Positions 3,101 through 63,739 of a stretch of DNA of 64,000 nucleotides are shown here, one piece after another; position 1 is the first letter of the stretch; every line of letters starts with the position of its first letter. Made by a program: the position numbers and the translations under genes. Source of the DNA: Liolophura sinensis (taxonomy: Eukaryota; Mollusca; Polyplacophora; Chitonida; Chitonidae); assembly GCF_032854445.1 (NCBI RefSeq), contig NC_088305.1:24523400-24587399 (forward strand). The letters run 5' to 3'. Below the pieces are notes generated by a model. That model was not told where the DNA came from. It ran no database searches and saw nothing but the letters and a program-made list of their open reading frames with translations.

Positions 3101-6100
3101 CACTTATACGACGGCGACCAGCATTATGGTGGGAGGAAACCGGGCAGAGCCCGAGGTGAATCTCTGACCATCCACAAGTTACTGACAGACCTTCCCACGT
3201 ACGGCCGGAGAGGACGGAAAATTTAGGAAATACATAAAACAACACAATAGGCAATGTAGCTCTTCTATTACGAAACAAGGGACGATGTCTTGTGGATAGA
3301 AACGCTTGCTTACATTTCGATTATAAGAACCCACGAGGTGTGGGTTAAAACCTGGCCTTGGACAGTGACTTTGTAAATTCACCCGGCTGTCACTGTTTTG
3401 GGGGCTTTGGTGCTAATAAGCTGTACCTAGACGACGCTCATGTGGCCACTTCAACAAGCAAGGTGTGAATAACCGTACGTCACATGCGGAAAAGTTGGTC
3501 AGTAATTTGCCAAAGGTTGGTGGTTTACGCCAAGCGCTCTGTTTTTCTCCACCCATAAATATGACCGGCATCGTTTAAGTGAAAAATCCTTCAGTTTGGG
3601 TTTAAGCAACAATAAATCAATAAATAACTACTGTATCACAGGCCCCTACCTCAATCAGTGAGTACGTGCAAGCGGCCGGAAGGAAGCTGTATTTGTGGCT
3701 GTCGAACGTCCACACGTGAGACACGCCCATAAAACTACACGTAGCTGAACACTTGTTCTTCGAGCATTCCCAGTAACCGTTCTTACATTCACTGAAACAG
3801 ACAATGGTTAATATAGGCACCTCCCCTACTGTGTCATATGCAGGGTCAACAGAGTGCCGGTGTCATATGTGCAAGACATCTCTCAAAAAGGGTATGTTTT
3901 TCTAGCGTGTATTTGTACGTGTGTTTATGTTAGCTATGTTATGAAAAAACATAATTCAGACATTTAGACGGAATTTTGTGGACAAGTTGATCCTAAGCCA
4001 GAACCAATTTATTACCTTTCAGATTTTGCGATTTTTTCAAACGATTCTTAAACGAATGTCAGATAGGGCATGCGTGCATACTAAAATATTGAGCGACAAA
4101 AACGTCCAACAAGGTACAATGTGTTCTGCCTAGCAGGATACAATGTATTCTGCCTTGCAGGATACAATGTATTGTGCCTAGCAGGATACAATGTATTGTG
4201 CCTAGCAAGGTATTGTACCTTTGTTGAATTCGCTTGGATACATTTAGTTGTGGTAGAGGTTTGCAATATCGTGGTGCTTTATAAATCAATTTTTTGGTTT
4301 ATTTTATCTGTTTGCCTTGAAAATGGTATAATGGTCAATTATTCGTTTGAATAGTCCACTGTGACCGGGGGAGTGTTACGTCTAGGGTGTTAGGCTATAC
4401 GTGTTTCTTCAAGAAGACAAAACAGTTCGGTTGGTCTGATGCTAGGGGCGTGTAATTTGCCACCACTCAAACATTTACACAACAGTTAAAATAATCCATA
4501 ACTGAAGTAAATTGTCAAAGAAGCCGGATTTCACCAGTTGCGTTTGACCATTTGCCAATTATCACATTATCGTTTCTGCGCTGTACGGCTTTCAGTATAT
4601 GATATACCATGGGTAGTGTGACCTGTGTTTGACCAGGCGGGCCGTACGTCTGGTGTTGATTAGCCATGATAGTGACTCTTACTCCATAGCATCAAATGCC
4701 TTTCTGTATGTTTCACAGAGAAATATTGTTATCGCTCACACCATAAACGTGCCACACATTACTGTTGTTATGGCTCACACTATACACGTGTCACATATTA
4801 CTGTTGTTATCGCTCAGACTATACACGTGTCACAGATTATTGTTGATATCGCTCACACTATACACGTGCCACATATTACTGTTTTTATCGCTCACACTAT
4901 ATACATGTCACAAATTACTGTTGTCATCACTCACACCCGTGTCACATATTACTGTTGTTATCGTTCACACTATACACGTGTCACACATCATTACTGTTGT
5001 TATTGTTCACGCTATACACGTGTCACACATTACTGTTGTTATCGTTCACACTATACACGTGTCACACATTACTGTTGTTATTGTTCACGCTATACACGTG
5101 TCACACATTACTGTTGTTATCGCTCACACCATACACGAGTCACAGTTACTCCGAACATTAATCCAACTAACCACTTACAGTCTCTCTGAACTGACACTTA
5201 CACTCTTTGACATTTACCACGTGTTACTGTGACGGGGTTTACCAGCTGGGGATTTGAACCAGGGATCTCTGGGATACGAGTCCAAACTTCGCTTCTAGCA
5301 CTTGGCTAAAATGAAATTCCATCCAGCTCGGAGGTAGGTAGTGCTTATACATCACCCTGTTACATTACAAACACTTACCACGTGTTACAATCCCTTTGAA
5401 CTGTTAACATGCTGGCACTTACCATGTGTTACAGTCCATATCAACATTTACCATGTTGGCACTTACCACGTGTTACAGTCCCTCTCAACAGTTACCATGC
5501 TGGCACTTACCACGTGTTACGGTCCCTCTCAACGGTTACCACGCTGGCACTTACCACGTGTTACAGTCTCTCTGCACCGTCGCTCCGCTGGGAAAACTCT
5601 CTTTTTGGTAGGAACATGGACACATATTTTCGGGGATACATTGCCCTTCATTAAGCACCATGCCAGGCATACATTCACATCCGGGCACACAGTATGTTAG
5701 GCACTGCTCCCGGATAAGGCTGCCCACAACGTGGCAGGTCTTCGGACACAGCGAGACACACTCAGAGTACACTTGGTTGGTCGGGCATTCCTTGGCTGTG
5801 AATGGAAGATCGCTTGATCATTCATATGACGAAGAGGAGACATTAGGTCTGTTTACATGTACTGTGCCTTGTGGCAGGGCGAATTCATGCCGCTAAAGTG
5901 CTGCCACCACTGAAGTATCAACACCGCATCCAGTCACACCACACTGACACCGGGCCAACCAGTCCTGTTTCCTTTCTCTAACCTCTCAGTGCTGAGCGCC
6001 AAGCGAGCCAGCAACAAGTACCATTTTTACAGTCTTTGATGTGACCCGACCCGGGCTGACACGACTAATCATAATAATAAATTGATTTATTTATTTTATT

Positions 6101-40834: not shown

Positions 40835-41905
40835 TCATTGGATATGTGTGATCAGGTAAATGATTGGATAGGTTTGATCAGGTAAATAATTGGATATGTG
40901 TGATCAGGTAAATAATTGAATATGTGTGATCAGGTAAATGATTGGATATGTGTGATCAGGTAAATGATTGGATATATGTGATCAGGTATGTGATTGGATA
41001 TGTGTGATCAGGTAAATGATTGGATATGTGTGATCAGGTAAATGATTGAAAATGTGTGATCAGGTAAATAACTGGATATGTGTGATCAGGTAAATGATTG
41101 GATATGTGTGATCAGGTAATATGATTGGATATGTGTGATCAGGTAAATAATTGGATATGTGTGATCAGGTAAATCATTCGATACGTGTGATCAGGTAAAT
41201 GATTGGATATGTGTGATGAGGTAAATGATTGGATATGTGTGATCAGGTGTGTGATTGGATATGTGTGATCAGGTGTCTGATTGGATATGTGTGATCAGGT
41301 AAATGATTGGATATGTGTGATGAGGTAAATGATTGGATATGTGTGATCAGGTGCGTGATTGGATATGTGTGATCAGGTAAATGATTGGATATGTGTGATC
41401 AGGTAAATGATTGGGTAGTTGTGATCAGGTAAATGATTGGATAGTTGTGATCAGGTAAATCACTGGATATGTGTGATCAGGTAAATGATTGAATATGTGT
41501 TATCGGGTAAATTGATTGGATATGCGCGATAATGTAAATGATTGGATATGTGTGATCAGGTAAATGATTGGATATGCGCGATCAGGTAAATAATTGGATA
41601 TGTGTGATAATGTAAATGCTTGGATATGTGTGATCAGGTAAATGATTGGATATGCGCGATCAGGTAAATGATTGGATATGTGCGATCAGGTAAATGATTG
41701 GATATGTGTGATTAGGTATGTGATTGAATAGGTGTGATCAGGTAAATCACTGGATATGTATGATCAGATAAATCACTTGTTATGTGTGATCAGGTAAATG
41801 ATTGGATATGTGTGATCAGGTAAATGATTGGATATGTGTGATCAGGTAAAATTACTGGATATGTGTGATCAGGTAAATGAATGGTTATGTGCGATCAGGT
41901 AAATC
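40835..41905. repeat. 26-bp minisatellite, subfamily 1, about 40 copies
   Basis: The unit is GGATATGTGTGATCAGGTAA plus ATGATT. It continues into a diverged subfamily at 41905. Confidence 0.93.
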
Positions 41906-42300
41906 AATGTGCCACCTGATACATGACTGGTTGTGTGTGACCAGATACATGACTGGTTGTGTGTGACCAGATACATGACTGGTTGTGAGTCACCAGATAC
42001 ATCACTGGTTATGTGACCAGATACAGCACTTGTTGTGTGTGACCAGATACATGACTAGTTATTTGTAATCAGATGCATGACTAGTTATTTGTAATCAGAT
42101 ACATCACTGGTTATGTGTAACGAGATACATCACTGGTTGTGTCTGAACTGATACATCACTGGTTACGTGTAATCAGATACATCACTGGTTATGTGTAACG
42201 AGATACATCACTGGTTGTGTCTGAACTGATACATCACTGGTTACGTGTGAACTGATACATCACTGGTTACGTGTGAACTGATACATCACTAGTTACGTTT
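41905..42300. repeat. 26-bp minisatellite, subfamily 2, about 15 copies
   Basis: The unit resembles AGATACATGACTGGTTGTGT plus GTGACC and aligns with subfamily 1 over its whole length. Late copies carry a GTGTGAACTGATACATCACT form. Confidence 0.9.
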
Positions 42301-56184: not shown

Positions 56185-56384
56185 TCAACCCTTCTCATCA
56201 GAGGGATTATCTGCAGACTCTGCAGTCCAAATAAGCGTTCCCCAATATCCACAGTTAACTCTCTCCACCACTAGATGGCGTTGCTTTAATCCAGTGACAG
56301 CAGTAAACCTGTCTCTTGTCTCAGTATCACCAAGTCCCAGCTGTCCATAGTTATTCCATCCTGTCATTAGCAAGTCCCCTTTAT
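56185..56384 (-). CDS. RCC1 gene exon D, last coding exon
   Basis: Encodes DKGDLLMTGWNNYGQLGLGD, then CGYWGTLIWTAESADNPSDE and KG-stop. The acceptor is TTTTTCCACAG. On this strand the nearest AATAAA hexamers are at 55817-55826, inside a SINE 3' tail. Confidence 0.88.
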
Positions 56385-59300: not shown

Positions 59301-62300
59301 TGACCTTTGCACTGTTCCAGATTTCTGTACAAAATTTACTGTTGGTGGCTGTGATATAAAGTGATAGGTAAGAGAGTGTGCATGCGCTGTACAGAGCATG
59401 GTTTCTGTATGTCATCCTCCACAGGCCCAGTTTTGTGAAAATTTGATAAAAACGGTGGGAAATGCGTTTGTAAAAAATGATCACAGACTTACAGACGGAT
59501 GGACAGGTGCATATGTTTATTGTTCTATTTTCCAGAAATATACAAGGTATGCCACAGGGGTAAAATTCTTGACATTGCACAAAAATCACATAAATAAATC
59601 AATAACTACATGTATAAAGGGTTTCGTACACCTGACTAATGGCATTTGGGTGACGAAAGGTGTCTTCTCGGGTTACAGAAATAACTCGCACCTGGTTTGT
59701 CAAAAGTAGTAACAGCGCTGTGATTTGCTTTTTTTTTTTTTAATGTGTACACATTAGTTCACTTTGAACTACATGTAAGATGTCTTGCTTTAGTAAAAAA
59801 TGGTATGCTTGTTAAACTTTATTTGAGATACTTTATACATGCATCAACATATCTGGCCTATTGCTTCATAATGATGAATATGAAATTGTATTTCATTTAT
59901 GATTTTCACTGCAAAGGATGTAGGAATATATTGACATCCAGCTATAAAAAACTTGTACATGTATGTCAATGTAAAATTGGCAGCAGCAAGATTTGAACTC
60001 GCCACCTTACACATTACAAAATTCAGAAGATTACATTTATATGATTGGTGTTTTATGTTGTACTCAAGAATGATTCATTTATATGGTGGCAGCCAGCATT
60101 ATGGTGGGGGGAAACCAGGCAAAGCTCGGAAGAAACACATCACCATCTGCAGGTTGCTGGCAGATCTTCCCACTTACGGCTGGAGAGGAAGCCAGCATGC
60201 AGAAAATTACAAAACCTACCTGTCACAATGGCTGTGTGCCTGGACCCGCAACTAACGTCAACAATCGTCAACTCAGTGGAGAAGTTAACAAGACAAGGTT
60301 CACACATCAGCACAACCAAATCCTCGGTCAATGGCTCAGAGGGTTTATCAGAGGCCAGTTTATCATGCAGTGTTTTACACGGCAGTCCCAGCTGTCCACT
60401 CTCATTCCAGCCCCATACATAAACATCACCAATATCTGAAATAACAGTTGCTTCTTTGTTTGATTGGTTTATGCTGTACTGGTTTTCAAAAATTATCAAA
60501 ATGTTCTAAATATTCCAAGCAAACCTCAAAACACCTTTCTAAAATCATTAGAACTCTCAGAATCAGGAAAAATGGCAAATTAGTCATTTATGGTCATTTA
60601 GTGTACCGTGATTCACTTATACGATAGTGGCCAGCATTTATAGTGGGACGAAACCAGGTAGAGCCCAGCAGAAACCCATGACCATCCTCATACGGCTGGA
60701 GGTGACACAACATACATTTTCAACAAAACATATGTGGTGGAAAGTTTTCAACAAAACATGTGGTGGAAAGTTTTCAACATCGGGAAAGTGCACTAGCACT
60801 CCAGCACTAACACAGGCCATACACAGATCCTCTAGATGTCACCAGTGACACTTACCACTGACAACAACAGTTTGCCAGCCTCCAGGCCATACCCAGACCC
60901 TCTCTAGATGTCACCAGTGACACTTACCACTGACAACAACAGTTTGCCAGCCTCCAGGCCATACACAGACCCTCTTTAGATGTCACCAGTTACACTTACC
61001 ACTGACAACAACAGTGTGCCAACCTCCAGCACTAACACAGGCCATACACAGACCCTCTAAATATTACCTGTGACACTTACCACTGACAACAAACAGTGTG
61101 CCAGCCTAAAGCACTAACACAGGCCATACACAGACACTCTAGATGTCACCAGTGACACTTACCACTTGTAACTAAAGTGTGCCAACCTCCAACACTAACA
61201 CAGGCCATACCCAGACCCTCTCTAGATGTCACCAGTGACACTTACCACTGACAACAACAGTTTGCCAGCCTCCAGGCCATACACAGACCCTCTCTAGATG
61301 TCACCAGTGACACTTACCACTGACAACAACAGTGTGCCAACTCTCTAGATGTCACCAGTGACACTTACCACTGACAACAACAGTGTGCCAACCTCCAGCA
61401 CTAACACAGGCCATACACAGACCCTCTAAATATTACCCGTGACACTTACCACTGACAACAACAGTGTGCCACCCTAAAGCACTAACACAGGCCATACACA
61501 GACCCTCTAGATGTCACCACTGACACTTACCACTGACAACAACAGTGTGCCAACCTCCAGCACTAACAAACAGTGTGCCAGCCTAAAGCACTGACACAGG
61601 CCATACACAGACCCTCTAGTATATTACCAGTGACACTTACCACTGACAACAAAAGTGTGCCAGCCTCCAGGCCATACACAGACCCTCTAGATGTTACCAG
61701 TGACACTTACCACTGACAACAACAGTGTGCCAGCCTCCAGGCCATACACAGGCCCTCTAGATGTTACCAGTGACACTTACCACTGACAACAAACCGTGTC
61801 TGCCAGCCTAAAGCACTGACACAGGCCATACACAGACCCTCTAGATATTACCAGTGACACTTACCACTGACAACAACAGTGTGCCAGCCTCCAGGCCATA
61901 CACAGGCCCTCTAGATGTTACCAGTGACACTTACCACTGACAACAAACCGTGTCTGCCAGCCTAAAGCACTGACACAGGCCATACACAGACCCTCTAGAT
62001 ATTACCAGTGACACTTACCACTGACAATAACAGTGTGCCAGCCTCCAGGCCATACACAGGCCATCTAGATGTTACCAGTGACATTTACCTCTGACAACAA
62101 ACAGTTTGCCAGTCTAAAGCACTGACACAGGCCATACACAGACCCTCTAGATATTACCAGTGACACTTACCACTGACAACAACAGTGTGCCAGCCTCCAG
62201 GCCATACACAGACCCTCTAGATGTTACCAGTGACACTTACCACTGACAACAACAGTGTGCCAGCCTCCAGGCCATACACAGACCCTCCAGATGTTACCAG

Positions 62301-63593
62301 TGACACTTACCACTGACAACCCACACACAGACCCTCTAGATGTCACCAGTGACACTTACCACTGACAGCAACAGTGTGCCAGCCTCCGGCACTGACACAG
62401 GCTATACGCAGGCCTTCTAGTTGTTCCACTAGGGTCAGGTTCAGAGAGCTTTCTGTAGAGTTGTGACCCAATTGACCTCGGCTGACAGAAATGAAGAGAC
62501 AAATGACGTGAAACAGTTTGTTTAATAAACGGCAATACCCTAATTCCTTGGCAATTTCGCACACGAAAGGGTAACTCTGAGTAAAATTTAAGCACATTTT
62601 AAATTTGATTTTGGAGAAAAAACTACACTGGTTGGAGGGCTGAGTTTAAGGGCTTCACAAAAAGTACAGTTTTATCAGTCCACACGGAAAAATGTCGTCA
62701 GAATTTGATTGAATAAACATCTTACAAGCATGCGAAAAGGTCGAAGAATTACAATAAAAATAAAAAAAGATTAAAATCATCTTCATCAGACATATTTCTG
62801 AAAACTGGATCAAAAAATGCTTTACTTACAATTGTTTGCTTCAATATGATTCAGCATTTGAATATTACCATTCCAAAGTGTGCTTTATTGTCCATATTTT
62901 TATTTATTTATTTATTTATTTATTTGATTGGTGTTTTACTCAAGAATATTTCACTTATACCACAGCAGCCAGCATTATGGTGGGAGGAAACCGTGCAGAG
63001 CTCAGGGAAAACCCAGGACCATCCGCAGGTTGCTGCCAGACCTTCCCACGTGCGGCTGGAGAGAAAGCCAGCATGAGCTGGACTTGAACTCACAGCGACC
63101 GCATTGGTGAGAGAATTGTGGGCCATTACGCTGCGCTAGCGCGCTAACCAACTGAGCCACGGAGGCCCCTCCATATTTATATTATTAGCTGTTAGGTTTC
63201 AACTTCACCTCCTACTGGTTCAGTTACAACATCTGATTTCAGGAGGTTTGTCTGGTACTCAGGTAACATGAAGCCGTAGAAACCTTTGGGGAGGAGGGAG
63301 GTGTCCTTGGTATAGGTATAGTAGTTACAAATACAAACAACACTTAACCAAAATCAAATATTAACCAAAATCAAATACATAGTTTAAAACCTGAAAACAC
63401 CCCACAGTATCAAAGCTTACCTGCCCAGTCCACAGGTATAAATCTGGCCCGTCTCCGAGAGCACGACAGTATGTTCCTTCCCACAAGTCACCTGTGTCAC
63501 CTGACAGGGTAAACTCAGCGGATTCCATGTCACAAGAGGCTGCAGATCAGATGAATCTTTGTCCCTGAACTCCAGCTCACCACACCTGCCATC
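56185..63593 (-). CDS. RCC1-repeat protein, C-terminal four exons (5' part beyond right edge)
   Basis: Exons 63421-63593, 62360-62481, 60220-60435 and 56185-56384 join in frame to about 236 residues and a TGA stop at 56185. The RCC1 blade motif recurs: VTCGKEHTVVLSETGQIYTC, then GQLGHN; SAGGWHTVAVS, then YVWGWNESGQLGL; VSCGSRHTAIVTDKGDLL, then WNNYGQLGLGD; and a closing VNCGYWGTLIW. This is a seven-bladed-propeller type sequence, of which about three blades are in the window. The short total and the C-terminal blade resemble RCC1 domain-containing protein 1, but other RCC1 proteins are possible. RCC1-type propellers act in chromatin binding, Ran exchange or ubiquitin ligases; which applies here cannot be told. 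Introns 2 and 3 of this set carry large minisatellites. Confidence 0.87.
56745..58260. repeat. 28-bp minisatellite with higher-order structure, about 54 copies
   Basis: The unit is TGCTGGTATGAACTTGCAAT plus ATGAGTAC, with variants carrying GAACATTGCTGATAT and GAGATATAAACAC. It fills part of the last RCC1 intron, between exons C and D. Confidence 0.94.
58265..59985. other. RCC1 gene intron, no exon needed here
   Basis: Exons C and D join in phase without any exon in this stretch. A family E fragment lies at 59335-59405. Confidence 0.55.
60035..60210 (-). mobile_element. Family B SINE beside RCC1 exon C donor
   Basis: GATTGGTGTTTTATGTTGTA through CCCACTTACGGCTGGAGAGG. It ends about 10-15 bases from the splice donor at 60219. 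Confidence 0.84.
60220..60435 (-). CDS. RCC1 gene exon C
   Basis: Encodes DIGDVYVWGWNESGQLGL through VSCGSRHTAIVT, one RCC1 repeat. The acceptor is TATTTCAG and the donor GTAGGT. A minus-oriented family B SINE ends about 10-15 bases downstream of the donor. Confidence 0.87.
60595..60715 (-). mobile_element. Family B SINE, fragment
   Basis: TTCACTTATACGATAGTGGC, CCAGCATTTATAGTGGGACG and TACGGCTGGAGG. Confidence 0.72.
60838..62345 (-). repeat. Minisatellite built from the end of RCC1 exon B and its splice donor, about 20 copies
   Basis: Units of about 48-85 bp. On the minus strand each carries GGCTGGCACACTGTTGTTGT, CAGTG|GTAAGTGTCACTGG and AGAGGGTCTGTGTATGGCC. Longer units also include GCCTGTGTTAGTGCTGGAGG. 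These match the tail of exon B (codons for ACVSAGGWHTVAVSG) and its first intron bases. The array fills the intron directly downstream of the working donor at 62359. Confidence 0.9.
62360..62481 (-). CDS. RCC1 gene exon B
   Basis: A 122-base exon encoding SRGQLGHNSTESSLNLTLVE and then CVSAGGWHTVAVS. The acceptor is CATTTCTGTCAG and the donor GTCAGTG|GTAAGTG. Its last 40 or so bases and the donor are the parent unit of the 60838-62345 array. Confidence 0.88.
62895..63172 (-). mobile_element. Family B SINE, near full-length copy
   Basis: Read on the minus strand it starts with a tRNA-like head (GGCTCAGTTGGTTAGCGCGC as A box, GTGAGTTCAAGTCCAGC as B box). The body contains CAGCAACCTGCGGATGGTC and CCACCATAATGCTGG. 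It ends GTGAAATATTCTTGAGT, AAAACACCAATC and (AAAT)n. It is the best reference copy in the window. Confidence 0.88.
63421..63593 (-). CDS. RCC1 gene exon A
   Basis: Encodes DGRCGELEFRDKDSSDL through HTVVLSETGQIYTCGLG. The donor GTAAGC is good. The acceptor (ATATAGAG) lacks a strong pyrimidine tract, so the 5' border may be off by two bases (ATATAG|AG). Upstream exons must lie past the window. Confidence 0.8.
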
Positions 63594-63739
63594 CTCTATA
63601 TCAACATTATTTTATTTATTATTTATCAAATGTATCTTCATGCTTTTACACATGAAGATTATACCATCTATATCATCTATTTCATCTGCTAAAAAGTTTA
63701 ATTGTGAAGGAAAATAGAGCAGCACTCGCTGAAGGGAAA

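Follow-up and report, generated by a model that had tools for sequence, protein, structure and literature searches.

An intron of an RCC1-repeat gene in the chiton Liolophura sinensis carries a mirage, a kind of array known from amphioxus and here a case in a mollusc. In the sections of the globin paper used here, mirage is the amphioxus name for the tandem duplication of an exon/intron boundary (PMC3087553), and in the chiton the tandem units span the boundary of their host gene and keep its splice signals. With a probability of about 0.7, we read the array as a minisatellite that began as a chance boundary-spanning tandem duplication and then expanded close to neutrally. The window, that is, the whole stretch of DNA analysed (64,000 nucleotides), lies on C11 of a searched genome of 632 contigs and 609,464,459 bases. 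Its features, and those found elsewhere in the genome, are collected in Table 1.

Table 1. Features of the two mirages in the window and of arrays elsewhere in the genome. Positions are those of the window unless a contig (C) is given.
Feature	Position	Strand	Remarks
Exon A, upstream in the same gene	63421-63596	-	Read by eye; 5′ border approximate
Exon B, RCC1-repeat gene	62360-62481	-	Pfam RCC1, E 1.7e-6
True splice donor of exon B	62351-62359	-	GTAAGTGTC; first of 21 donors
Array-bearing intron B-C	60436-62359	-	1924 nt; 3′ end TTATTTCAG
Mirage array	60799-62359	-	20 decoy donors; low end by eye, exon-like sequence near 60799
Decoy donors	62310, 62240, 62170, 62088, 62018, 61934, 61864, 61780, 61710, 61640, 61530, 61449, 61368, 61317, 61245, 61162, 61080, 60999, 60927, 60855	-	
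Exon C, next RCC1 repeat	60220-60435	-	Pfam RCC1, E 4.7e-14 over 60221-60433
Further RCC1-repeat exon	56230-56382	-	Match C11:24579629-24579781
TIL-domain exon, source of second mirage	5555-5795	-	Pfam TIL, E 7.5e-13 over 5557-5793
Second mirage	5372-5573	-	44 bp units; TRF 4.6 copies
RCC1 donor-side arrays	C8:39472057, C6:3122907, C4:24836212, C6:81269811, C1:13247251		
RCC1 donor-side two-copy duplication	C8:39484248		
Acceptor-side mirage, myosin-head exon (L102)	C2:5378281-5378913		About 7 units just upstream of the real acceptor

Host Gene and Anatomy of the Array

Exon B encodes the end of one RCC1 repeat and exon C, whose own donor is GTAGGT at 60219 (-), encodes the next. Against the RCC1 Pfam profile the match of exon B stops at position 50 of 50 and that of exon C begins at position 2 of 50, so that the first donor, 62359, is the one that fits the protein, and the place that the original prediction assigned to the true donor agrees with this continuity. 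Compared with the PDB, the protein of the gene matches RCC1-fold proteins, with UVR8 at the top; judging from the human sequence, the gene is possibly RCCD1. We infer that the further RCC1-repeat exon in Table 1 probably belongs to the same gene.

Between 62359 and 60855 there are 21 GTAA[G/A]TG sites, the true donor and 20 decoys, in keeping with the approximately 20 tandem units that had been predicted for the intron after exon B. Each unit is made up of an exon tail, CAGTG^GTAAGTG (the caret marks the junction), and about 25 intron bases, and 19 of the 20 decoys read GTG^GTAAGTG, with the same 9-mer as the true donor, the exception being 62088 (GAG^GTAAATG). Eight of the 20 donor spacings are 81–84 bp, nine are 70–72 bp, and one each is 49, 51, and 110 bp; the 70–72 bp units are without 11 bp of exon sequence, and a higher-order repeat of 154 bp runs over 61668-62320.

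The source segment is the last 56–59 nt of exon B. Searching the genome with this exon gave at least nine matches, namely exon B itself and at least eight of its own array units at 74–89% identity, with bases 62–120 of the query matched by at least eight units. Over the exon part, the unit consensus agrees with exon B at 49 of 56 positions, and each of the other seven is a transition; over the intron part, it agrees with the true intron start at 24 of 25. Since the exon carries a conserved protein repeat and is found once, exon B is the source of the array, as had been proposed. That proposal also named an end of similarity at the exon border as evidence against it; in the alignment of all units with exon B, the similarity crosses the border.

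Tandem arrays can be mis-assembled. An assembly artefact is nonetheless a very unlikely explanation here, as the units differ among themselves and the same pattern is found in unrelated genes. In the part of the published Liolophura japonica assembly report that we drew on, the HiFi reads have a mean length of 8,347 bp (PMC11068029), against about 1.56 kb for the whole array.

Donor Strength and Consequences of Decoy Use

The computed U1 pairing energy is −11.0 kcal/mol for 20 of the 21 donors and −6.9 kcal/mol for 62088. Among the 4424 minus-strand GT sites in the window only 31 reach −11.0, and 20 of these are the true donor and its copies. The claim that each unit joins an exon tail to its own donor is supported, and so is the claim that the copies keep a good donor, 19 of the 20 decoys equalling the true one in computed U1 pairing. 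The intron start reads GKCHW, followed by a stop that begins at intron base 15. Because the first intron bases would be retained, use of any decoy would lead to an early stop; the original prediction that a later donor would add repeat-coded residues or stops stands as to the stops, and is put more exactly as always an early stop.

Retention of the true 9-mer by 19 of 20 decoys, together with a read-through that invariably meets a stop, would fit decoys that are functional, competing for U1 and tuning the output of the gene through stop-containing transcripts. There is also a precedent in human IFI6, where, in the portion of the source consulted, downstream repeats serve as donors and several mRNAs result (PMC4526556). 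We nevertheless consider functional decoys improbable in the chiton gene. Mean diversity among units is 0.021 for the donor 9-mer compared to 0.072 for the exon part and 0.087 for the intron part, but uniformity as high occurs in 12 of the 73 nine-base windows (7 of 73 in a cruder alignment), so conservation of the donor is not clearly above that of the rest of the unit and selection maintaining the decoys is unsupported. Accessibility also fails to single out the true donor. The true donor and the decoys all lie within a hairpin of CAGTGG and TCACTG, and masking of the decoys by RNA structure is unsupported, with 8 of 20 decoys costlier to open than the true donor. The corresponding fractions for eight other mirages are 1/4, 1/3, 0/3, 0/2, 2/3, 3/3, 4/4, and 3/4. 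The amphioxus precedent points the same way, as mirages there are described, in the sections used, as causing no interference with regular splicing (PMC3087553).

As had been predicted, no good acceptor was seen among the YAG sites within the array, the best of which has an upstream pyrimidine fraction of 0.65, though this measure is weak because the real acceptor of exon C scores just 0.39. This bears on whether the array could be a step to a new exon or intron, as a published model proposes for the amphioxus globin mirages (PMC3087553, in part). Intron gain by tandem duplication, in which a new intron arises, is likewise known (PMC4974935, in part). For the chiton array we regard such a step as very improbable: by that weak measure the array is without a good acceptor, exons B and C are separated by a single intron, and the RCC1 profile is continuous across it. 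Mirages in general may still allow exons to be extended or introns to be gained.

Mirages Elsewhere in the Window and the Genome

A second mirage in the window follows a TIL-domain exon, with its true donor at 5554 (-) and copies at 5510, 5466, 5422, and 5378; additional donor-like sites lie at 5451, 5217, and 5201. Counting arrays with a period of at least 15 and at least 2.5 copies, minisatellites cover 17% of the window (24 arrays), compared to a mean of 10.5% for ten random pieces of the genome. A strong donor is present in 3 of the 24 arrays against 0.84 expected from shuffles, the three rows representing the two mirages. Apart from these, a long 26 bp array at 40837-42295 has a unit with the donor-like CAGGTAAATG, and no exon was recognised in the adjacent stretch that was read.

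To look beyond the window, exon edges were compared with their own flanks, using the flanks of other matches as the null. Two samples were used: 70 RCC1-family matches in the genome with at least 250 bp on each side (exon B excluded), and 35 of 81 myosin-head matches, chosen for short open frames. On the donor side, six of the 70 RCC1 matches were above the null maximum, five as arrays and one as a two-copy duplication. Four of the 35 myosin matches passed, and two were kept after reading (C12:686729 and C11:2675303); C12:678432 was dropped as a 15-base snippet (scoring 12.5, where the null reached at most 12.0), and C10:719970 (12.5) because its array begins in the donor and is without an exon part. 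On the acceptor side, two of the 70 RCC1 matches passed (C1:48284195 and C5:11205531) and were rejected as single displaced copies of the exon start rather than arrays, while the one myosin match of 35, C2:5378501, has 32 bp units with TTTGTAG^GTTTGAGC. Both samples combined, donor-side mirages were found at 8 of 105 matches, seven of them arrays, and an acceptor-side array at 1 of 105.

A repeat finder placed 14 arrays in the donor flanks (seven RCC1, seven myosin), 7 of the 14 being these mirages, and six in the acceptor flanks (one RCC1, five myosin), one of which is a mirage. It flagged eight of the 70 RCC1 matches, and C12:11413295, C12:11412610, and C1:48286068 were dropped as trivial short repeats. 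One RCC1 exon with a donor-side mirage (L061, C6:3122500-3123420) also has an upstream 74 bp array that ends at its acceptor, the copies reading TTTGTCAT in place of the TTTGTCAG of the real site.

From the other direction, 16 donor-bearing arrays were examined, 15 on C1 and one on C13. A Pfam-supported exon lies at the first donor in three (Branch, GH31, and WAP); two more (L050 and L051) have a long open frame there that matches no Pfam family. For another two, L040 and L041, the stretch examined ended before a complete donor word, and in the remaining nine of the 16 no exon was recognised, including L052, where the donor scored is not that of the array.

Small as the survey is, it suggests that boundary-spanning repeats are common in this mollusc, and mirages at 8 of 105 sampled exon matches suggest that they are no peculiarity of lancelets. 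It is this apparent frequency in a mollusc genome that is of chief interest. Among other contigs of the genome, C99 (108,685 bases) has seven copies of COX1 about 15.5 kb apart, much as if the mitochondrial genome, C632 (15,209 bases, one COX1 copy), had been joined end to end; this concatemer-like contig may be an assembly artefact or real.

Origin of the Arrays

The survey raises the question of how many mirages chance alone would supply. Array density was taken from ten random 10 kb pieces (21 arrays, mean period 41) or from the window (24 arrays, mean period 45), and founding units placed at random would leave 0.9% or 1.7% of junctions inside an array. Chance would therefore yield some mirages by itself; the donor side has more, with arrays at 7 of 105 (P 4e-5 or 2e-3). 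An eleventh random piece was excluded as a 5S rDNA array; this piece, L007 (C4:8000001-8010000), consists over its entire 10 kb of tandem units of about 391 bp, with 26 5S rRNA matches. Pure chance does not look sufficient to explain the donor-side frequency, which is apparently above the prediction from random placement.

A tentative explanation is that in this genome minisatellites arise preferentially around splice donors, as at a mutational hotspot, which would leave mirages over-represented and biased to donors. Roughly 1 in 15 sampled donors would then carry an array of its own exon tail and donor, several-fold the chance rate, and the single acceptor-side array among the 105 matches fits such a bias. 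Several results weigh against it. The difference between donor and acceptor sides is not significant (P 0.07, or 0.23 with the two-copy and displaced cases), and the sampled matches are not independent, the RCC1 matches collapsing into roughly 65 exon groups, spread over 19 gene-like clusters. The array density used is also that of random pieces or of the window as a whole. Genome-wide, donor words in arrays gave 550 matches and reversed words 389, and within 164 kb the donor word is the commoner (7 vs. 3), yet among the matches listed for C1 clusters are equal, with at least 15 of the triple AGGTAAGT and at least 15 of the reversed word, counted by eye to 93.4 Mb and 90.4 Mb, respectively. 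By these cluster counts on C1, a genome-wide excess of the donor word in arrays was rejected. A donor hotspot would in any case complement, rather than replace, an origin by chance duplication and near-neutral expansion. If true, it would make the genome a large natural experiment on a spliceosome choosing the first among many identical donors.

For the exon B array, chance duplication followed by near-neutral expansion would run as follows. A founding tandem duplication of about 81 bp would have taken in approximately the last 56 coding bases, the donor, and some 25 bases of the intron; growth to 20 copies may have followed through slippage or unequal exchange, including one higher-order step of 154 bp. 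Every copy lies downstream of the authentic donor, and a transcript spliced at that first donor would shed the array together with the intron. With the first donor presumably used and the remainder removed, the array would be close to neutral and tolerated. That all 21 donors keep one register relative to the exon tail is consistent with this origin, as is the recurrence of the same anatomy at other exons. So are the agreement of the unit consensus with exon and intron, the continuity of the RCC1 profile with the first donor alone, the higher-order repeat, the absence of a sign of selection on the decoys, and the amphioxus mirages. Neutrality is still not to be assumed, since donors in the downstream repeats are used in human IFI6, according to the part of that source consulted (PMC4526556).

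Comparison with Known Systems

In molluscs, we recognised no report of boundary-spanning arrays among the open-licence PMC papers listed; a 27 bp intron minisatellite is described from abalone, and the excerpt of the source makes no mention of an exon border (PMC6905558). Intron gain by tandem duplication (potato RdRp, ATP2A1) resembles the chiton array in that a stretch containing splice signals is duplicated in tandem within a gene. It differs in that an existing chiton intron was lengthened, with no new acceptor evident. The human IFI6 (6-16) gene is said to have been described by Turri in 1995 as holding a minisatellite with multiple splice donors, and each repeat, as in the chiton, bears a donor downstream of the exon, the chiton donors being judged by computed strength. 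Unlike in the chiton, where any decoy is predicted from sequence to lead to an early stop, the downstream donors of IFI6 are used and yield several mRNAs.

The closest comparison is with the amphioxus mirages. As far as the sections used here describe them, they occur in Adh and other loci cited by the globin paper and in the globins BflGb6 and BflGb9, and boundary-spanning minisatellites are possibly a general cephalochordate feature (PMC3087553). Two further amphioxus cases, PGBD5 (similar duplications) and TnC, are named in the part consulted of a second paper (PMC3902484). The chiton arrays resemble them in their tandem boundary-spanning copies, in splice signals that are kept on the donor or acceptor side, and in a higher-order or concerted pattern among units. 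They differ in the host, a chiton, in the genes, which are RCC1-repeat and other genes, and in number, with 20 copies at exon B; for BflGb6, the same portion of the globin paper gives 6 units in one haplotype and 3 in another, along with length instability (PMC3087553). Each mirage comes with its own experiment on how a 5′ splice site is picked from among nearly identical donors.
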